Position numbers and translations under genes: made by a program. From Catellatospora sichuanensis (GTDB lineage: Bacteria > Actinomycetota > Actinomycetes > Mycobacteriales > Micromonosporaceae): a stretch of 64,000 bases of DNA. Shown here one piece after another: positions 21,820 through 29,475 of the stretch. The stretch spans positions 372,001 through 436,000 of the forward strand of contig NZ_VIQO01000002.1 of the NCBI RefSeq assembly GCF_007483665.1. The letters run 5' to 3'. How positions within the stretch are numbered: position 1 is the stretch's first letter; the number at the start of each line of letters is the position of its first letter. A model generated the notes under the pieces. The model saw only the letters and a program-made list of their open reading frames with translations. It was not told the DNA's origin and did not search any database.

Positions 21820-22614
21820 ATGAACAAATCGGCGGCGGCCGTGAAGGCGACCCGCACATCCGCTCCCGCGTTCGACGTCAAGCGGCGCTACAACGCCGAC
21901 TTCGACTGGGATGGGTTCAACTCCGACTGGTACTGCGCGCACAACTATCTGAGCCTGCGTGACGACGACACCGCGATCATGACGAGGGTCGGCGAGTTCT
22001 TCCAGCAGCATCTGAAGCCGTCCACCGCACAGCGGCGCGGCCTGGACGTCGGCAGCGGTGCGAACCTCTATCCCGCGATGTCGATGCTGCCGTTCTGCGA
22101 GGGTGTCGACCTCCGGGAGTTCTCGCGCTCGAACGTGCGCTGGCTCAACACTCAGATCGACCGGTACGACACCTATTGGGACGAGTTCTGGGACGTCTAT
22201 CGGGCGTTGCCCGCCTACCAGAACGTCACCAATCCGCGAGAGGCGATGCGCAAGGCCGCGAAGGTCGAGCGGATGAGCATCTTCGGATTGCCGGAACGCG
22301 AATGGGACATGGGCACCATGTTCTTCGTCGCGGAGTCGCTCACCTATGACCCGAGGGAGTTCTGGCGGGCCGTCGAATGCTTCGGCCGGGCGCTCAAGCC
22401 GGGTGCTCCTTTCGCGGCCGCTTTCATGGCCGATTCCAAGGGCTACAAAGTGGACAAGACTCAGTTCCCGGCCGTTGCCGTGGACATTACCGACGTGAAA
22501 GACTGTCTATCGGTGGTGTGCGATGTCATCGACATCGACCTGGTGGAGACGAAGAAACCGCTGCGCCGTGGTTACGGCGGCATGATCCTCGCGACGGGAG
22601 TCGCACTCAGCTGA
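21820..22614 (+). CDS. SCO2525-family SAM-dependent methyltransferase (NNMT/PNMT/TEMT-like)
   Basis: 264 residues. GLDVGSGANLYPAMSMLPFCEGVDLREFSRSNVRWL is motif I plus the acidic strand that binds S-adenosylmethionine. AFDVKRRYNADFDWDGFNSDWY and FFVAESLTYDPREFWRAVECFGRALKPGAPF match the NNMT/PNMT small-molecule methyltransferase layout. From memory this is the family named after Streptomyces coelicolor SCO2525. It is first of four same-strand genes, 21 nt from the next. The acceptor is unknown; a small amine, thiol or modified nucleotide would fit the fold. Start ATG 21820 has GAAGGG at proper spacing. Confidence 0.8.
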   Translation: MNKSAAAVKATRTSAPAFDVKRRYNADFDWDGFNSDWYCAHNYLSLRDDDTAIMTRVGEFFQQHLKPSTAQRRGLDVGSGANLYPAMSMLPFCEGVDLREFSRSNVRWLNTQIDRYDTYWDEFWDVYRALPAYQNVTNPREAMRKAAKVERMSIFGLPEREWDMGTMFFVAESLTYDPREFWRAVECFGRALKPGAPFAAAFMADSKGYKVDKTQFPAVAVDITDVKDCLSVVCDVIDIDLVETKKPLRRGYGGMILATGVALS

Positions 22615-22635
22615 CGGAACGGCGGACGGGCGGCC

Positions 22636-24504
22636 ATGAAGATCCAACCACGTCAACAGCTGCTGGAGATCTGGCGGGCCGCGGCCCGCAACTCCTACGT
22701 CGACGGCGAGTGGGTGTGGGGCGGCGACAACCGGTGGGATTCGATCAAGGACGCCGAGCAGTTGCTGTGCGTCATGCTGCCCGCGACGGAGATCCCGCGT
22801 TTCCGGCTGGACCAGCCGGACCAGACCGAGGACGACGTCGCCAAGGCGATGGAGGCGTTCGGCAACAAGCTGCGCATTCCGCAGGTGCTGGTCAAGGCCC
22901 TCATCGAATATCACCGCAAATATTCCGACGGTGACGGCCGGCCGATCTTCCCCGGCGGCTCGTATCTGGCCGCCCGGGATCCCGCCGAAGAGCTGGCGGA
23001 GGACCAGGTCTCGCTGGACGTCGTCGAGTCCTTCGCCCTGTCGATCACCCTCACCCTGGCGACGCTGGGCTTCGTCGGCGTCTACCGCAACTCGCTGGCA
23101 CCCGGCAGCTACCAGCAGCATCAGCAGGACGAGCTGGACGAGCTGGTGAGCCTGGCGGGCAAGCGCCTCACCGAGGCGATGGTGGGCCTGCTGCGCAGCT
23201 TCACCGTGTTCACCTACGAAGCCGCGGGCACCCATGGCCAGCACCTGATCCGGACGATCAACCAGTCCAACCTCTCGGACAATCGGCTGGTCACCGACCT
23301 GCGCGAGGCGCTGCGCCCGACCATCGCCGGTCTGCGCGACCTGACCGTGGGCATCGAGCAGCTCAACAACCTGGAGTCGCCCGACCAGCTGTTCGAGTGC
23401 GGTTGGTCGTGGGGCATCATCCGCGGCGCACCGCAGGTCGACTTCGTCGACAGCTCCGGCACCCAGCGGGCGGGATACGCCTATGACGCGCCTTACCTCT
23501 ACTTCACCGTGCAGGCGCTCGACGGCATCGCCGACCTGTTCTCCGCCCGCACCCGCCTGCTGCGCCTGCTCGACGACGAGCAGCTGCGACTGGCGGCGGC
23601 ACTGCAGCTGCGCTGGGAGCTGACGCAGAACTACTGGTCGGTCATCGCGAGTTTCGGCGCCGGCCGCTGGCCACTGGAGGACCTGCCCTGGCGCACCACC
23701 GACGGTGACGAGTCGGACTACTTCAGCCTCCTGGTGACCTCGATCGCCACCCGGGGCCTGCTGGAGGATCGGGACAGCGACGCCGACCTGGGCCGCCTCG
23801 GACGCATCCTCTCCGAACTCGCCAACCGGGCCCGGATCACCCGCCGCCCCATCGCCGCCGACACGGCGCTTGCGCTGCACCATCCCGGTGTGGCCATCGG
23901 GCTGGACGGGCCGACGGAGGGGCCGCTGCTGAACTGGGTCGCCGCCGACTTCGCGCCGCTGCTGCTCAAGCGGACCATCCGCATCGCGCGGAACCTCAGC
24001 GACGTCCAACTGCGGGGGCAGCTGCTGACGCTGGCCGACGAGATCTGGGAGCACCTGCTCAAACGTCGCATCCCGCATGGGCGCAGCCGGGGCCTCTGGG
24101 ACCAGCCGGCCGGGGCGTTCGCCCCGACAGCAGCGGGCGTCCTCGAGCTCTCCGACGTCGATACCAGCCGACTGAGCTGGCACCACACGGTGCGGGTGGT
24201 GGAGAGCCTGGTGTTCGCGGCAGATCTCGCCCGCACCGATCCGCTGCGCAGCGACGAGCTGCTGGGCTTCGCCGGGGAGCTGCTGGCCGAGGCCGAGCAC
24301 CTGTTCGACAAACAGCAACTCGTCGGTTCGGCCGAGACCGGGCTCAACATGCGCAACGCGATGCAGGCGCTGCGCACCCGGCTGCGGCATGCCCGTGAGA
24401 TCACGGTCGAGCGGCCGGGCACCACGGTCGCTCTGGTGCTCGACGTCTTGCGGGAGCTGGACAGTCTGACGGAGGCACGGCGCGACGTGACGGGAGCGTC
24501 CTGA
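22636..24504 (+). CDS. SCO2524-family protein, function unknown
   Basis: 622 residues, mostly amphipathic helix with no membrane segment or signal peptide. Landmarks are an N-terminal QLLEIWRAAARNSYVDGEWVWGG, YRNSLAPGSYQQHQQDELDELVSLAGKRLTEAMVGLLRS around 150-195, and a Trp-rich WELTQNYWSVIASFGAGRWPLEDLPWRTTDGDESDYFSLLVTSI stretch. I recognise it as the SCO2524 family by its place between the SCO2525-like methyltransferase and the SCO2523-like ATPase and by the DNRWDSIKDAEQLLC region. No catalytic motif is evident, so it may be a scaffold or sensor. The next start is 2 nt after its stop. Confidence 0.75.
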   Translation: MKIQPRQQLLEIWRAAARNSYVDGEWVWGGDNRWDSIKDAEQLLCVMLPATEIPRFRLDQPDQTEDDVAKAMEAFGNKLRIPQVLVKALIEYHRKYSDGDGRPIFPGGSYLAARDPAEELAEDQVSLDVVESFALSITLTLATLGFVGVYRNSLAPGSYQQHQQDELDELVSLAGKRLTEAMVGLLRSFTVFTYEAAGTHGQHLIRTINQSNLSDNRLVTDLREALRPTIAGLRDLTVGIEQLNNLESPDQLFECGWSWGIIRGAPQVDFVDSSGTQRAGYAYDAPYLYFTVQALDGIADLFSARTRLLRLLDDEQLRLAAALQLRWELTQNYWSVIASFGAGRWPLEDLPWRTTDGDESDYFSLLVTSIATRGLLEDRDSDADLGRLGRILSELANRARITRRPIAADTALALHHPGVAIGLDGPTEGPLLNWVAADFAPLLLKRTIRIARNLSDVQLRGQLLTLADEIWEHLLKRRIPHGRSRGLWDQPAGAFAPTAAGVLELSDVDTSRLSWHHTVRVVESLVFAADLARTDPLRSDELLGFAGELLAEAEHLFDKQQLVGSAETGLNMRNAMQALRTRLRHAREITVERPGTTVALVLDVLRELDSLTEARRDVTGAS

Positions 24505-24506
24505 CC

Positions 24507-25424
24507 ATGCTCGTCTTCGCGACCTCGGACAAGGGCGGCACCGGGAGGTCGGTGACCAGCAGCAACCTCATCTACCGCCGGTCGCTGCAGGGCAGCGACG
24601 TCTGCTACCTGGACTTCGACTTCGGCTCGCCGACCGCCGGAGCGATCTTCGCGATCGCCGATCTGGCGCGCGGCACCCGTGCCAACGGGCTCCACTCCTA
24701 CCTGCGCAACAAGGTGTCCTGGCCGCTGCGGGTCGACGTCTGGGGCGAGTCGGACCGGCTGAGCCTGCGCGGCCGGCCGGACGGTGCCGGGCAGCTCTGC
24801 CTGATCCCGGGGGACAGCGGCGGGGCCGAGTTCGCCGCCGACCCGGCGATCGTCGAGCGGTGTGTACGGCTGATGCTGCGGATGGAGGAGGAGTTCGACA
24901 TCACCCTGGTGGACCTGAGCTCCGGGCGGTCGTACGCCACCGACATCGTGCTGGCCGCGCTGGCCGCACCGCAGCTGCGCGGGGTGGTGACCCGCTGGCT
25001 GGTGTTCCACCGGTGGACGCGCCAGCACATCATCGCCGCGTCCGGGCTCGTCTACGGCGACCGGGGGATCGTCGAGATGGGGGCGGCCCGCGGGCACGAC
25101 CCGGAGCGGTTGCGCCGAGCCGTCAGGTTCGTCCGCACCGCGGTGGTCGACCCCAGTTCGGAGCAGCTCTCCGGGCTGCGTCCGGCGCAGATGGAGTGGT
25201 TCGAGGCGTACAACAGCGAGCTGCAGCGCCTGGCGGGCACCGAGCGGATGGGCCACGCGGTGACGCTCGGCTCGGTGCCGCTCGAGCCGGTGCTCCAGTT
25301 GCGGGAGCAGCTGATCTCCGACGCGGACACGGTGACCAAGCAGATCGCCAACACGGCGACGGTGGAGGCCTTCGACAGCATTGCGAAGCTGCTCACCGAC
25401 GACGCTGTCTGGGAGGGCGCGTGA
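24507..25424 (+). CDS. SCO2523-family ParA/MinD-like protein with variant P-loop
   Basis: 305 residues. It begins MLVFATSDKGGTGRSVTSSNL, the deviant Walker A of the ParA/MinD/Soj class: the signature Lys9 is kept, but the P-loop Lys is Arg14. CYLDFDFGSPTAG (Asp37/Asp39) is the switch region, and DITLVDLSSGRS is the Walker B-like strand. Such ATPases dimerise around nucleotide and often position cargo on DNA or membrane. With Arg in the P-loop, hydrolysis may be slow or absent. Its stop overlaps the next gene (GTGA), so the two products are probably needed in matched amounts. Confidence 0.8.
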   Translation: MLVFATSDKGGTGRSVTSSNLIYRRSLQGSDVCYLDFDFGSPTAGAIFAIADLARGTRANGLHSYLRNKVSWPLRVDVWGESDRLSLRGRPDGAGQLCLIPGDSGGAEFAADPAIVERCVRLMLRMEEEFDITLVDLSSGRSYATDIVLAALAAPQLRGVVTRWLVFHRWTRQHIIAASGLVYGDRGIVEMGAARGHDPERLRRAVRFVRTAVVDPSSEQLSGLRPAQMEWFEAYNSELQRLAGTERMGHAVTLGSVPLEPVLQLREQLISDADTVTKQIANTATVEAFDSIAKLLTDDAVWEGA

Positions 25425-26398
25425 CCGACCTGGAGATCGTGTTCCAGGAGAGTGCGGCCACCCCGAAGCTCGACGAGGTGCCGCTGTCGCATCTTTCCAT
25501 CGAGCTCGGGCACCTCTACATGGAGGACTTCAAGGCGGGATACCGCCGCCTGGTGGAGCTGTTCGCCAGGGTCAGGCCATGGGCACAGGCTGCCGAGGAG
25601 GTGTGCCGTGCGCAGTGGGGTCCCAAGGCGCGGATCAGCACCTGCTTCCTGGTGGACGACTACTTCTCACCGTTCGGTTCGCCGGCCGAGCTGGTGCCGC
25701 TGCTCCAGCGGGCGGCGGCGGAGTCGAATCTGGTCATCGACTACCTGGCGCGGGAGTCGGCCTGCGCGAGCGCGGGTGACGTCGAGCCGGCCCGGCTGGT
25801 CGAGGGCCGCCTGGTGGCCGAACCGCCGCGGCAGGCGAACGGCAGCCGCCCGCCCGTCACCGAGACCGGCTGGCTGAGCAACGGCGAGCGGTCACCGCAC
25901 GCGCTCGTCGCCGAGGCGATGGAGGCCGTCGAGCCCTGGCGGCCGCCTCGCCAGAACCTGCCGAACAACCATTCGATCTTCATGGACGTGGAGTTGTGGG
26001 ACGCGCCGCGGGGCGAGCGCCGCTGGTCGTGCCCGATGCTGGCGGCCGTGTGGCAACTGCTGCGGCTCGGCCTGCTACGGCACGAGGGGCAGGCGGTGGC
26101 GGTGCCGCAGCATCCCTCGGACCCGCTCGGGGCCACGTGGCAGGAGCTGCCGCCGGTGCTCAGGCTGCGGCCGGACGCACGCCCGTTCTTCGCCTACCGC
26201 ACCTTCTCCGCGCTCAGCACCCGTTTCCTTCCGATCGAGGGAGCGGTCCGGGCCATCCTCGACCAGGTCTCGGTCGACCCGGCGGTCAACGGCCTGGCGA
26301 TCGCACGCGCGGCGGACGAGGGCCGGGCGCTGTCCGCGGACATCCTCGACCGGATCGACTACGCCTTCGTCAACGGCGCGTCCGCGCCCCTCAGATGA
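25421..26398 (+). CDS. SCO2522-family protein, function unknown
   Basis: 325 residues from GTG 25421, overlapping the ATPase stop as GTGA. The N-terminal part (EVPLSHLSIELGHLYMEDFKAGYRRLVELFARVRPWA, then RISTCFLVDDYFSPFGSPAELVPLLQRAAAESNLVIDYLARES) has alternating strand/helix character. A variable linker and a C-terminal helical region with a conserved-looking FFAYRTFSALSTRFLPIEGAVRAIL follow. No membrane segment or known motif is seen. The family name rests on cluster order and remembered sequence. Its stop overlaps, on the opposite strand, the stop of the membrane protein gene at 26391. Confidence 0.72.
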   Translation: MTDLEIVFQESAATPKLDEVPLSHLSIELGHLYMEDFKAGYRRLVELFARVRPWAQAAEEVCRAQWGPKARISTCFLVDDYFSPFGSPAELVPLLQRAAAESNLVIDYLARESACASAGDVEPARLVEGRLVAEPPRQANGSRPPVTETGWLSNGERSPHALVAEAMEAVEPWRPPRQNLPNNHSIFMDVELWDAPRGERRWSCPMLAAVWQLLRLGLLRHEGQAVAVPQHPSDPLGATWQELPPVLRLRPDARPFFAYRTFSALSTRFLPIEGAVRAILDQVSVDPAVNGLAIARAADEGRALSADILDRIDYAFVNGASAPLR

Positions 26399-27359
26399 TC
26401 GGTGTGGCGATCTTCCAGAGGTCGTTGAAGCGGTCGATGTTGCGCTGCACCTTCGACTGGTTGGTGATGAGCTGGGTGCTCGCGATCGTGGCTCGGCTCG
26501 GCTCGGTGACGGGCGCCGACGGCGACGTCTGGTAGCTGACGGAACCGTCGAAGATGATGAAGTCGAAGATCGGCGGGATGAACTGGCGGGGGAACAGGGT
26601 CGGGTCGAGCGCGCGTACCTCGATCTTGATGTCGTCGTGCATGCCCACCACCCGCCGGAAGTTGATGTCCTCGCGCAACTCGGGGCGGTCCAGGATGAAG
26701 ATGCGACGCACGCGGACGTTGCGCCGTACGGCGTCGCGCTGCGCCTCGAGGTAACGCTGGCCGAGATCGCTCTGCCACAGGCTCCCGTCGAAGTAGTCCT
26801 GTCCGCCGACGTCGAGCGTCGTGCTGATCGCGTCGAGTGAGTGGTTGACGTGTTTGGTGAGGCCGAGCAGCCAGTCGCGATCCTCGCCGTCGTAGGTGAG
26901 GTCGCCCGAGTCGCCCAGCGTCTTGAGCATCTCCGACAGTCGCTGGATCTCGGTCTGCGCGAGGTCGAACACGAGCTGCGGGTTGGGCTTGATGCGCACC
27001 GAGTTGCCGACGAGCTGGGTGATGGCGTCGGTCTTCAGCGCCGAGGCCTCGACCAGGCCGAACAGCTTCGTCGCCGCGTTGATCTTCTGGAAGCCCTCGT
27101 CGATGCGCGCCTCGTTCACCCTCGAGTGCCGTTCCAGCTCCTCCTCCATCGTGTCGAGCCGCTTCTCGACGTCGTAGAGGAACTGCACCACGAAGGCCAC
27201 GCCGGCGACGAAGAGTGAGGCGCCGAAGCCGACCAGGACCATCGGCTGCGTGCCGAGCACCTCGAACAACCAGGTCGCGACGAAGGTGATGCAGAAGAAG
27301 GCGAGGCTGATCAGGATCTTGGTCGGTGTGCGGTTGCCGGGTGGGTTGCGGTCGGCCAT
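26391..27359 (-). CDS. Two-helix membrane protein with coiled coil and unknown C-terminal domain
   Basis: 322 residues from ATG 27359 (AGGGGG upstream). Two membrane helices span about 14-34 and 38-62. A charged coiled coil (KRLDTMEEELERHSRVNEARID) follows, then a ~230-residue soluble domain ending in RVRRIFILDRPELREDINFRR and PPIFDFIIFDGSVSYQTS. The end recalls the distant PLD-like or sensor-type domains used to read small ligands, but I cannot assign a family. It starts 11 nt after the SCO2521-like gene, so the two form an operon. It may anchor or sense for the cluster. Its stop is embedded in the end of the opposite-strand gene. Confidence 0.75.
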   Translation of the reverse strand: MADRNPPGNRTPTKILISLAFFCITFVATWLFEVLGTQPMVLVGFGASLFVAGVAFVVQFLYDVEKRLDTMEEELERHSRVNEARIDEGFQKINAATKLFGLVEASALKTDAITQLVGNSVRIKPNPQLVFDLAQTEIQRLSEMLKTLGDSGDLTYDGEDRDWLLGLTKHVNHSLDAISTTLDVGGQDYFDGSLWQSDLGQRYLEAQRDAVRRNVRVRRIFILDRPELREDINFRRVVGMHDDIKIEVRALDPTLFPRQFIPPIFDFIIFDGSVSYQTSPSAPVTEPSRATIASTQLITNQSKVQRNIDRFNDLWKIATPII

Positions 27360-27370
27360 GGGTCCCCCTG

Positions 27371-28330
27371 TCACGCACGCCGGGCGGATGCCTCGATCAC
27401 GGCCAGCGCCAGCTGGTCGCGCACCCGGTCGACGTTCGTCTGCCACTGTCGGGTCATGCCTGGACGCTGCTCGAGGCCGTGCCAGATCGGCTCCCACACG
27501 ACGTCGACACGGGCCGCGGGCATCCACAGGTGCAGCAGGTAGTCCAGAGCCGGCGCGAGCCGCTCGATCACCTGCTGCCGCCCCGCCGTGCCGGCGGGGG
27601 TTCGGCCGACCAGCGACAACAGTGTCGTGAGCAGCCAGTCGTGCAGGGCGATGTCTTCACACAGGACGGCGGCGGCCGGCGCGTCCGTGCCGATGCGGGG
27701 CAGCCGTGCGGTGCGGGTGGTGCCGTCGACGAGGCGGAACTCGACGGCCCCGCCGTCGGCGACGGCCCAGCGCAGGCCGGTGCGCGCGGACCGGAACGGC
27801 GCCGCCCGATCGATCCGCGGCGACGCCTGGACCTGGTCGATGACCCGGCTGCCGATCGCCCCCAGGTCGAGCAGGTCGGTGTGCCGGCCGCCGCCGTGCA
27901 GGTGGCCGCCGGCGATGTCGAGGTGCTCGGACTTGCCGAGCAGTTCCAGGACGCCGGGGCGGGAGAGGTAGTGCGACCACGGCCGGCGTCGGTGGCCGTG
28001 GCCCGGCACGACCGTGGCGTACGCCGAGCCCTGCAACACGTGCCCGCCGGTGAGCACGGCACTGGACGTGATCGTGCCGACCGCGCGCACCCGCGTCACG
28101 CCGGAGTGCCGGCCGGTGCCGGACACCGCGGGCAGGTCGCAGTCGACCCCGGTCAGCTGCGGAGGGGACACGGCGTATCCGATCGGCCGCTCCGACCGGC
28201 GCACTCGTTCCCCGACAGTCAGGGCGAGCAGTTCGGCGCCGGTGCCGGGGGTGACCGCGGTGGAGTGCTGCAGCAGTGCGGTGTGTACCTCGCCGATGAC
28301 GACCGTGGTCGCCTCCCTGGTGGTGGCCAA
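27371..28330 (-). CDS. SCO2521-family protein, function unknown
   Basis: 319 residues from TTG 28330; GGGAG six bases upstream supports this rare start, and no other start exists before the upstream stop. Landmarks are VVIGEVHTALLQHSTAV, RRSERPIGYAVSPPQLTGVDCDLPAV, VRAVGTITSSAVLTGGHVLQGSAYATVV and RRRPWSHYLSRPGVLELLG. The first half is beta-rich, with clustered His and Asp (GEVHTA, HGHRRRPWSHYLSRPG), possibly metal-binding. The C-terminal third is helical. It is transcribed towards the SCO2522-2525 genes with the membrane protein gene in its own operon. Confidence 0.72.
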   Translation of the reverse strand: MATTREATTVVIGEVHTALLQHSTAVTPGTGAELLALTVGERVRRSERPIGYAVSPPQLTGVDCDLPAVSGTGRHSGVTRVRAVGTITSSAVLTGGHVLQGSAYATVVPGHGHRRRPWSHYLSRPGVLELLGKSEHLDIAGGHLHGGGRHTDLLDLGAIGSRVIDQVQASPRIDRAAPFRSARTGLRWAVADGGAVEFRLVDGTTRTARLPRIGTDAPAAAVLCEDIALHDWLLTTLLSLVGRTPAGTAGRQQVIERLAPALDYLLHLWMPAARVDVVWEPIWHGLEQRPGMTRQWQTNVDRVRDQLALAVIEASARRA

Positions 28331-28503: not shown

Positions 28504-29475
28504 ATGGTGGCTCCTTCACGGCAAGAAGCGGTCGTCATCGGGGCGGGCGTATCCGGTCTCACCACGGCCGTCCGCCTGGCGGAGGCGGGTGTGCGGGTTC
28601 GGGTGGTCGCAGCGAAGCGGCCGGCGCAGACCACCTCGGCTCTCGCCGGTGCGAGCTGGGGTCCGTACATGGTCGAGGACGACCGGGTGGTGGATTGGAG
28701 CAGCGCCACGCTGCGTGAGTTCGAGCGCATCGCGCCGCAGGGCGGATGCGGTGTGCGGTTCGTGCGGGGCATGGAGGCGTCGCCCGATCCCGTGGACCCG
28801 CCGGACTGGGCGACTGCTCTTAGTGACTATCAACTTTGCGACAGATCAGAGTTGCCCGCGGGCTTCGTGGTGGGCTGGTGGCACACCATCCCCCTCATCG
28901 ACATGCCGGTCTATCTGAGATACCTCAGCGCCCGGCTGGAGGCGCTCGGGGTCACCGTGACCGAACTCGCCCGGCCGCTGCTCGGCTTCGCCGAGGTGCA
29001 GGCGCCCGGCGTCCTGATCAACTGCACCGGGCTGGGCGCCCGGGACCTGACCAAGGATCCCGACCTGCAGGCCACCCGGGGCCAGCTGGTGGTCGTCGAC
29101 AACCCCGGGATCGACTGGTTCTTCCAGGACTCCGCCGACCACGGCGACCTGACCTACTTCCTGCCCCACGGTGATCATGTGGTGCTGGGCGGCATCGCCG
29201 TCGGCCACCCGGACGATCGCGTCGAACTCCGGCGCGAGCCGGACGTGGAACGGGCGATCATCGAGCGCTGCGCCGCCATCGAGCCCCGGCTGGCGGGGGC
29301 CACCGTGCGGGGCGGCCGGGTGGGTCTGCGCCCCAACCGCGTCTCCGGGGTGCGGGTCGAGGTGGACCGCTCCGGGGACCGTACGGTGATCCACAACTAC
29401 GGGCACTCCGGGTGCGGGGTGACGCTGTCCTGGGGGTGTGCCGACGAGGTGGTGGCGCTGCTCGCCGGGCTGTGA
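28504..29475 (+). CDS. D-amino-acid-oxidase-like FAD enzyme
   Basis: 323 residues, the usual size for DAO. The N-terminal VVIGAGVSGLTTAVRLAEAGVRVRVVAA is the FAD-binding Rossmann fold. TSALAGASWGPYMV, NCTGLGARDLTKDPDLQATRGQLVVVDNPG, and the C-terminal GLRPNRVSGVRVEVD with NYGHSGCGVTLSWGCADEV match the family. It would oxidise D-amino acids to keto acids with peroxide release, perhaps for recycling peptidoglycan D-residues. It might instead be a glycine or ThiO-type oxidase. No thiamine genes adjoin. It is preceded by a palindromic operator. Confidence 0.87.
   Translation: MVAPSRQEAVVIGAGVSGLTTAVRLAEAGVRVRVVAAKRPAQTTSALAGASWGPYMVEDDRVVDWSSATLREFERIAPQGGCGVRFVRGMEASPDPVDPPDWATALSDYQLCDRSELPAGFVVGWWHTIPLIDMPVYLRYLSARLEALGVTVTELARPLLGFAEVQAPGVLINCTGLGARDLTKDPDLQATRGQLVVVDNPGIDWFFQDSADHGDLTYFLPHGDHVVLGGIAVGHPDDRVELRREPDVERAIIERCAAIEPRLAGATVRGGRVGLRPNRVSGVRVEVDRSGDRTVIHNYGHSGCGVTLSWGCADEVVALLAGL

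Follow-up and report, generated by a model that had tools for sequence, protein, structure and literature searches.

A conserved SCO2521-SCO2524 gene core with an exchangeable partner protein in actinobacteria: a candidate sensing or defence circuit

Six intact open reading frames lie between positions 21820 and 28330 of the window, the 64,000-nucleotide stretch of Catellatospora sichuanensis DNA that was analysed here. Four are packed on the plus strand and encode an SCO2525-family SAM-dependent methyltransferase of the NNMT/PNMT-like type, which is an optional member (21820..22614, 264 aa; NF040568, 337 bits, cut-off 240), followed by three core proteins: an SCO2524-family protein (22636..24504, 622 aa; NF040567, 917 bits), an SCO2523-family ParA/MinD-like P-loop protein with the variant Walker A motif KGGTGRS (24507..25424, 305 aa; NF040564, 502 bits), and an SCO2522-family protein with a predicted alpha/beta fold (25421..26398, 325 aa; NF040566, 433 bits). 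The gaps between them are 21, 2, and -4 nt, and the GTG start of SCO2522 overlaps the preceding stop. On the minus strand, a gene for a membrane protein with a weakly DUF6879-like C terminus, which fills the putative exchangeable-output slot (26391..27359, 322 aa), converges on SCO2522 with an 8-nt overlap, and is accompanied by the fourth core gene, of the SCO2521 family (27371..28330, 319 aa; NF040565, 383 bits from residue 13). Because this last family match starts only at residue 13, SCO2521 translation probably begins a few codons past the TTG at 28330.

The original prediction, made from the sequence alone, had described these six genes with the same strands and gaps, and had matched five of them to families named only by Streptomyces locus numbers. 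Both descriptions hold, as five of the six proteins score above cut-off for the NCBIfam equivalog families SCO2521 to SCO2525; the membrane protein has no NCBIfam match at E ≤ 0.1. However, the predicted gene set stopped at 28330 and thereby overlooked a DAO-family FAD oxidoreductase (28504..29475, plus strand; Pfam DAO, 1.8e-35) that is divergent from SCO2521 and to which the linked unit extends. This recurrent optional partner belongs to a family of which 27 of 31 copies directly adjoin SCO2521, while the gene that comes next is of 16 different kinds. A tblastn search of the window gave no DUF4062-NACHT relative, and no GNAT of the family seen in the genus taken as Streptomyces was found within 9 kb.

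With SCO2524 as the query, we collected 80 named loci, in which genes were predicted with a simple codon-score caller (starts are approximate) and optional genes were counted within the fetched flanks. SCO2524, SCO2523, SCO2522, and SCO2521 occur together in 78 of these loci, the exceptions being L081, whose contig ends inside SCO2522, and L085. The same four families are above cut-off in an identical set of 10 of the 121 genomes of the order. These four proteins thus pass the co-occurrence check that had been proposed for the whole cluster, and are an inseparable core; the methyltransferase, present in 44 of 80 loci, is optional. Because the four families co-occur, the independent distribution that had been named as evidence against a self-contained system is not what is seen for the core.

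SCO2524 is patchily distributed, being found in 5 of 296 genomes of a phylum sample, 29 of 121 genomes of one genus, and 48 of 246 of a second. The former genus is taken as Micromonospora because its rows are identical to named loci, and the latter as Streptomyces because of its likeness to the SCO families. In this second genus, gene order hardly varies (19 of the 20 loci that were fetched from the 48 agree), and 18 of the 20 loci lie near the same leuA-like gene, a label given by eye. A plasmid, phage, or viral origin was considered and rejected: searches of 72,556 plasmid records, 50,697 phage records, and viral contigs gave no SCO2524, and the plasmid records gave no SCO2523.

SCO2523 had been read as a ParA-type P-loop protein, and its superfamily membership is borne out by profile matches to solved iron-sulfur carrier and nucleotide-binding proteins (5.3e-5), with matches to Pfam ParA and CbiA below cut-off. 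The deviant Walker A motif of ParA/MinD proteins is KGGxGK[ST], with both lysines present. Among 80 aligned SCO2523 rows, 78 instead carry KGGTGRS and none carries KGGxGK, so that the first lysine of the motif is retained but arginine occupies the P-loop lysine position, a departure from the deviant Walker A consensus. The protein also matches the KGGVGR-type domain NF047398 (4.9e-7), although its 30 bits are under the model cut-off of 90.

Convincing solved relatives of SCO2522, SCO2521, SCO2524, and the membrane protein were not found by sequence, and weak RelA, YacP, and CFAP20 stretches in these searches are regarded as chance. SCO2524 has no Pfam family above cut-off, and its best solved-structure match by sequence is at 0.053. 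The AF2 model of SCO2521 (pLDDT 90.4) has a beta-rich N-terminal part and a helical C-terminal part and gave no Foldseek match at E ≤ 0.001 in the PDB library, the only one searched (best 0.019). For SCO2522 (AF2 model, pLDDT 85.8), no Foldseek match was better than E 0.05; the best is a weak one to CysRS (E 0.053, probability 0.69, query TM-score 0.32). Among the matches listed, the highest query TM-scores (0.22-0.33) belong to class I aminoacyl-tRNA synthetases, comprising CysRS, ArgRS, and MetRS from the PDB and, weakly, viral models of ArgRS and GlnRS, while one other viral protein also spans 322 columns at a TM-score of 0.22. Profile comparison with hhalign placed SCO2522 at 0.055 from ArgRS, 0.29 from CysRS, and 0.16 from a further group of CysRS-like sequences regarded as MshC, no better than the unrelated control pairs (0.039 and 0.047), whereas ArgRS and CysRS were joined at 4e-9. 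We therefore rejected SCO2522 as a synthetase by sequence and discounted motif resemblances seen by eye. Its modeled topology weakly suggests a class I synthetase-like arrangement that profiles do not support.

The NNMT-like assignment of the SCO2525-family methyltransferase is confirmed by Pfam NNMT_PNMT_TEMT (27.3 bits, cut-off 25, E 2.5e-6), but not its place as a fixed member, as the fetched flanks of Streptosporangiaceae loci hold it in only 2 of 26 cases. The other enzymes are likewise optional in the loci examined: two families of DAO-family oxidases occur in 29 and 24 of the 80 loci, and a GNAT in 4 of 80. Within the genus taken as Streptomyces, 19 of 20 loci carry the GNAT. The families had been described as lacking an assigned function, which stands except for SCO2525. 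In the available text of the sources, operon sco2521-sco2526 is among those under HupS control and normal growth requires SCO2525 (PMC11472566), SCO2525 is an HrdB-controlled example with a morphogenetic role (PMC6344877), and a SAM-linked role is also cited. Our literature search found three papers that name these loci, but the family names, DUF6879, KGGVGR, and NF047398 in none; the one hit in the search for the last three terms was for SCO2526.

The predicted membrane protein does have two N-terminal hydrophobic segments (residues 11-29 and 34-52). Its match to DUF6879 is under the cut-off (0.0015, 18.4 bits, cut-off 23.9), and its relatives match this domain at E ≤ 0.001 in 27 of 42 aligned sequences and exceed the Pfam cut-off in 2 of 3 scanned. 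Across the 80 loci, 62 encode the membrane protein, 13 a NACHT protein, 1 both, and 6 neither, an exchange pattern with a Fisher p of 3.7e-9 that is uncorrected for phylogeny. The NACHT protein, of about 1,400 residues, has a DUF4062-NACHT-HEAT architecture and occurs where the membrane protein is replaced. A representative matches DUF4062 at 1.6e-19 (70 bits, cut-off 24.7) and NACHT at 2.4e-11, and has HEAT repeats. All 13 carry a Walker A motif and a Glu-bearing SITELEY motif, whose Glu is a candidate for the published catalytic residue.

In the genus taken as Micromonospora, where at most nine candidates were scored per genome, a DUF4062-NACHT homologue (83-100% identity) is present in 27 of 29 genomes with SCO2524 and in 0 of 92 without it, and 26 of the 27 lie about 3.2 kb from SCO2524 on the same contig. 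Of these loci, 20 were fetched; the NACHT gene is present in 17 and the membrane protein in 1. A FastTree phylogeny, which carried a long-branch warning and includes some species twice (for example L099/L265, L102/L260, and L084/L258), places all 31 NACHT rows inside one 34-row clade that holds Micromonospora, Plantactinospora, and Dactylosporangium loci. Because these rows form one clade, replacement of the membrane protein is a single event as far as seen, and repeated independent replacement was rejected. Given this exchange for a DUF4062-NACHT-HEAT protein, the anchor or sensor role that the original prediction gave to the membrane protein finds no support in that form.

Neither usual partner is present in 15 of 133 loci. 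In four of these (L088, L112, L114, and L262), a different protein of STAND or TIR type is encoded no more than three genes away, and one has a decayed NACHT gene (L087); nine have neither (L081 ends at the contig end), and a tenth, L273, encodes a 288-residue protein without a match. Large neighbors left unscanned among the 15 are those of L251 (694 aa), L262 (1258 aa), and L273 (671 aa). As a control, 3 of 87 membrane-protein loci have a conflict-type neighbor (p 0.008, post hoc, with phylogenetically non-independent counts), and these three (WD40-KAP at L038 and L042, TIR-Roc at L096) weigh against the contrast. Ten of 22 large control neighbors were scanned, and eight were judged by first letters only: L027 and L028, and also L236, L238, L239, L241, L243, and L248, which by those letters resemble the MMPL protein of L234. 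Those of L041, L049, L054, and L101 were neither scanned nor judged.

PADLOC models gave nothing convincing for the six window proteins (best 0.0099, a candidate model) and no match at 1e-5 for two NACHT proteins. A defence-island context was also rejected: a scan of 140 of the 161 flanking proteins listed matched 10 PADLOC families at 1e-10 with at most two members each, which, with no matched control, is no obvious island or clear enrichment.

Our preferred reading, which we hold tentatively, is that a four-protein signal-processing core controls an exchangeable output as a predicted sensing or defence circuit. SCO2524, SCO2523, SCO2522, and SCO2521 would form a complex with the variant P-loop protein as its switch, governing a single output protein; the direction of signaling is inferred. 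In most lineages, including that of the window, the output would be the membrane protein with its DUF6879-like C-terminal domain, and in the Micromonospora/Plantactinospora/Dactylosporangium clade a DUF4062-NACHT-HEAT protein that may oligomerize and, as a putative NADase, degrade NAD+. The methyltransferase, acetyltransferase, and DAO-family flavoenzymes would be lineage-specific accessories that set a threshold, or else provide or alter the molecule being sensed. The trigger may be phage infection or stress, and the output is presumably harmful or dormancy-inducing. In favor of this reading count the co-inheritance of the core, the exchange of the membrane protein for a DUF4062-NACHT protein, the account of DUF4062 as an NADase and antiphage effector (PMC13174449), the STAND- or TIR-type proteins at some loci that lack both usual partners, and the patchy distribution. 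A bolder version, which we consider doubtful, holds that SCO2521-SCO2524 are the invariant control core of an immunity or regulated-dormancy system absent from PADLOC, in which the P-loop switch, a class I synthetase-like protein, and a third protein whose fold has no match jointly restrain and fire an executioner (membrane protein or DUF4062-NACHT NADase) that SCO2525 methylation keeps off. This would explain the growth defect on loss of SCO2525 alone. Against a defence role stand the PADLOC and flank results, the absence of SCO2524 from mobile and viral records, the near-fixed locus in the genus taken as Streptomyces, and the available citations of SCO2525 for growth and morphogenesis, not immunity; confinement of the NACHT replacement to one clade argues against exchange as a recurrent pattern.

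Those same citations (PMC11472566 for HupS control and growth, PMC6344877 for morphogenesis, each in its available text), together with the near-fixed order and neighborhood in the genus taken as Streptomyces, would fit a module by which mycelial actinobacteria control development or growth, with the core tuning growth or differentiation, the membrane protein anchoring it, and the immune-like partner a lineage-specific add-on. We judge this somewhat unlikely, as presence in just 48 of 246 genomes of one genus and 29 of 121 of the other is patchy for a conserved developmental function, and one clade pairs the core with a DUF4062-NACHT protein. An unlikely alternative is a small pathway that makes or modifies an amino-acid- or peptide-derived signal, to which the linked methyltransferase, oxidases, and acetyltransferase and the synthetase-like TM-scores of SCO2522 would lend themselves; many loci lack one or another of the clear enzymes, however, the hhalign values for SCO2522 are no better than those of the unrelated pairs, and none of its Foldseek matches is better than E 0.05, with one other viral protein also aligned over 322 columns. 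Very unlikely is the idea of the original prediction that SCO2523 positions or gates a membrane-anchored complex, and nothing found here points to positioning: superfamily membership, the retained first lysine, and the presence of the membrane protein at 62 of the 80 loci favor it, but the arginine substitution and the missing membrane protein in most NACHT-clade loci examined do not. A role in conflict or stress is more likely for the module than one in positioning. The inseparable core, the optional methyltransferase, and the membrane-to-DUF4062-NACHT exchange give these orphan families, present in about one-fifth and one-quarter of the genomes sampled from two large genera, a testable link to NAD+-depleting bacterial immunity, and they suggest that the SCO2525 growth phenotype may reflect lost restraint rather than a lost biosynthetic step.

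Several known systems resemble parts of this module. A domain of the KGGVGR-motif type is also present in FxsT; SCO2523 is like these variant ATPases in its domain match and its arginine for the P-loop lysine, but differs as a stand-alone protein of 305 residues that scores well below the model cut-off. The alternative output is like STAND/NLR-type bacterial immune proteins, such as the NACHT antiphage protein EruA, in having NACHT with Walker A, and matches NF058535 EruA weakly (1.6e-8, 33 bits, cut-off 1000), but is co-inherited with a conserved four-gene core. The available text of a 2026 preprint (PMC13174449) describes DUF4062 as a TIR-like NADase, some members of which are antiphage; the alternative output of one clade shares DUF4062 with these Swarozyc/DUF4062 enzymes and carries a conserved Glu-bearing motif, but here the domain is fused to NACHT and HEAT and tied to the four-gene core, which that text does not mention alongside them. 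The closest likeness is to the S. coelicolor SCO2521-SCO2526 operon, whose five named families (NF040564-NF040568) are common to the window. SCO2526 is the presumed GNAT of S. coelicolor, and SCO2520 its presumed membrane protein. At loci of the genus taken as Streptomyces, the order GNAT, methyltransferase, SCO2524, SCO2523, SCO2522, SCO2521, membrane protein recurs in 19 of 20 loci fetched, whereas the window encodes SCO2521 and the membrane protein on the minus strand, opposite the other four genes, and has a DAO-family oxidase in the flank.

An ORF check on the window recovered all six ORFs of the original prediction with the same positions, lengths, and gaps, and NCBIfam searches matched five of the encoded proteins above cut-off to SCO2525, SCO2524, SCO2523, SCO2522, and SCO2521, in agreement with that prediction. 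For the sixth, a membrane protein whose minus-strand gene lies at 26391–27359, NCBIfam gave no match at E ≤ 0.1. Among the six proteins, the only Pfam family above cut-off is NNMT_PNMT_TEMT, on the methyltransferase (SCO2525), and PADLOC yielded nothing convincing for the six (best 0.0099).

In a sample of 121 genomes from the order, SCO2524 occurs in 10, and SCO2523 (above cut-off), SCO2522, and SCO2521 are found in the same 10; the SCO2523 profile gives only sub-threshold P-loop matches in nine more. The methyltransferase exceeds its cut-off in 6 of these 10 genomes. A pattern scan of genomes from 84,980 species identified 433 stretches encoding SCO2524 relatives, and the best 80, which are the relatives nearest the window, were retained with their flanks as named loci. 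In 78 of the 80, the four core families occur together, the exceptions being a locus that meets a contig end within SCO2522 (L081) and one without SCO2522 and SCO2521 (L085). Because the methyltransferase is present in the fetched flanks of only 44 of the 80 (and of 2 of 26 Streptosporangiaceae loci), the unit is a four-gene core plus optional genes. Independent distribution of the families, which would speak against the original prediction, is not seen for the core four, which travel together; the methyltransferase is separable. A sub-threshold SCO2525-like methyltransferase (141 bits) is encoded at 334212–334922 of contig C16 in G351, a genome of the 121 that lacks the core. Partial cluster duplications in loci L064 and L111 supply additional SCO2524, methyltransferase, or membrane-protein copies.

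Profile searches place the membrane protein in 62 of the 80 loci, in two orientations. The window copy has hydrophobic segments at residues 11–29 and 34–52, and a simple hydropathy scan of 42 aligned relatives gave two such segments near the N-terminus of 19 proteins and a single one in the other 23. A relationship of the C-terminal portion to DUF6879, a family without an assigned function, shows in 27 of the 42 relatives at E ≤ 0.001; the window protein scores 0.0015, below the cut-off. Additional relatives, some shortened, lie near the cluster in loci L028, L030, L051, L056, L058, L064, L070, L071, L083, L094, L095, and L097.

A protein of 1,383–1,454 residues, with DUF4062, NACHT, and HEAT repeats in the one representative scanned, is encoded in 13 of the 80 loci, one of which (L084) encodes the membrane protein as well, at an upstream position. 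All 13 proteins retain a Walker A motif and the motif SITELEY with its Glu. In g2, a sample of 121 genomes taken as Micromonospora from rows identical to named loci, SCO2524 is present in 29. With at most nine candidates scored per genome, a homologue of the DUF4062–NACHT part (83–100% identity) was found in 27 of these 29 versus 0 of the 92 others, one of which has a 35% relative. The NACHT gene lies ∼3.2 kb from SCO2524 on one contig in 26 of the 27 (on separate contigs in G512) and is broken into two frames in G453 and G520. Among the 20 g2 loci that were fetched, the NACHT gene is present in 17 and the membrane protein in 1. The two SCO2524-bearing genomes without the homologue are G510, where two other STAND-type proteins adjoin the core (locus L262), and G513 (L273), which has a split SCO2524 and, overlapping the end of SCO2521, a 288-residue protein with no Pfam match. 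When 133 SCO2524 rows were placed on a FastTree tree, all 31 with the NACHT gene fell in one 34-row clade, so that the replacements seen amount to a single event and not to many. Locus L087, inside this clade, contains the remains of a decayed NACHT gene.

Neither usual output is present in 15 of 133 loci, and 4 of these 15 have another STAND- or TIR-type protein no more than three genes away. These are a NACHT–FGE protein within three genes of the core (L088), an NB-ARC–WD40 protein whose N-terminus is DUF4062-like by tblastn and which adjoins a split SCO2524 (L112), a TIR-domain protein at L114:4147–6528, 63 nt upstream of SCO2524 and in the same direction by gene calls, and, at L262:3–8738, an NA-iREase3–NACHT protein plus a WD40 protein with NACHT-region similarity (tblastn), directly upstream of a core-only cluster. 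A further one of the 15, L087, has the decayed NACHT gene noted above, and the remaining loci show none, with three of their large neighbors outside the scan. The TIR protein of L114 has weak ThsB similarity, and beside the SCO2524-SCO2523-SCO2522-SCO2521 run there (L114:6592–11687) the fetched stretch encodes neither a methyltransferase nor the membrane protein. Conflict-type neighbors occur in 3 of 87 membrane-protein loci (L038, L042, and L096). The resulting preference of STAND/TIR-type neighbors for loci without a usual output (p = 0.008) is suggestive only, because the contrast was framed post hoc, the loci are related to one another, and 10 of 22 large control neighbors were scanned, leaving 12.

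At 28504–29475, divergent from SCO2521, the window also encodes a DAO-family FAD oxidoreductase (DAO, 1.8e-35) absent from the original prediction. This first DAO family occurs in 29 of the 80 loci. Of its 31 copies, the window's among them, 27 directly adjoin SCO2521, and the gene on the other side is of 16 different kinds, so the linkage goes further than shared surroundings would explain. Another DAO family, which resembles ThiO and scores below the ThiO cut-off, is present in 24 of the 80 loci (23 of them Streptosporangiaceae), directly after the membrane protein in 23 of 24 and followed by 11 different genes. A GNAT acetyltransferase family is found in 4 of the 80, three from Pseudonocardiaceae and one from Frankia, as well as in 19 of the 20 loci fetched from g8, a sample taken as Streptomyces.

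The distribution of the module is patchy: it occurs in 5 of 296 genomes sampled across the phylum, in 29 of 121 in g2, and above cut-off in 48 of 246 in g8. The SCO2524 tree mostly tracks bacterial families, requiring 18 label changes where the minimum would be 6 and shuffled labels average 74. Seven-gene order is kept in 19 of the 20 fetched g8 loci, 18 of which have the same leuA-like gene nearby; upstream flanks of g2 loci vary. Searches of plasmids, phages, and viral contigs recovered no SCO2524, and the flanking genes form no obvious defense island.

Profile comparison with solved relatives (5.3e-5) places SCO2523 in the ParA/MinD superfamily, with arginine replacing the P-loop lysine. 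The motif KGGTGRS appears in 78 of 80 aligned rows and KGGxGK in none, and a KGGVGR-variant ATPase model scores 4.9e-7, below its cut-off. The protein probably binds nucleotide and may hydrolyze it poorly. For SCO2522, the predicted model is good (pLDDT 85.8), and class I aminoacyl-tRNA synthetases have the top query TM-scores among the 50 matches listed for each of two libraries; the structure search gave no significant match (best E 0.053), and when profiles of ArgRS, CysRS, and a presumed MshC set were compared with it, the result was negative although the positive control worked. The SCO2521 model is also good (pLDDT 90.4), with no significant match in the PDB, and SCO2524 has no significant solved relative.

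Literature searches by family and domain names turned up no paper devoted to the module itself. Published passages place operon sco2521–sco2526 within a HupS-controlled group and describe SCO2525 as needed for normal growth (PMC11472566), cite SCO2525 as an HrdB-controlled example with a morphogenetic role (PMC6344877), and discuss its mutagenesis in connection with SAM and differentiation (PMC3017869). A developmental reading of the module would fit these passages, and we regard it as rather doubtful. A biosynthetic or modification pathway, which the methyltransferase, oxidoreductases, and acetyltransferase might suggest, must be set beside the many loci that lack each of these enzymes, and seems improbable. 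The ParA-like positioning machine of the original prediction would draw on the superfamily membership of SCO2523, beside which stands its arginine-bearing P-loop; we consider it very improbable.

We tentatively favor a sensor/transducer core of four proteins, with SCO2523 as a nucleotide switch, that would restrain an output protein and free it on a signal. The data show the joint inheritance of the core, the optional nature of the enzymes, and the replacement of the membrane protein; from these we infer the complex, signal, direction of control, activity, and physiological role of the module. Enzymes of methylation, acetylation, or oxidation would be optional modulators, and the output would be a membrane-located protein whose place is taken in one clade by the DUF4062–NACHT protein. 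The latter is expected to be an NADase, by comparison with DUF4062 as PMC13174449 reports it, a TIR-like NADase with antiphage members.
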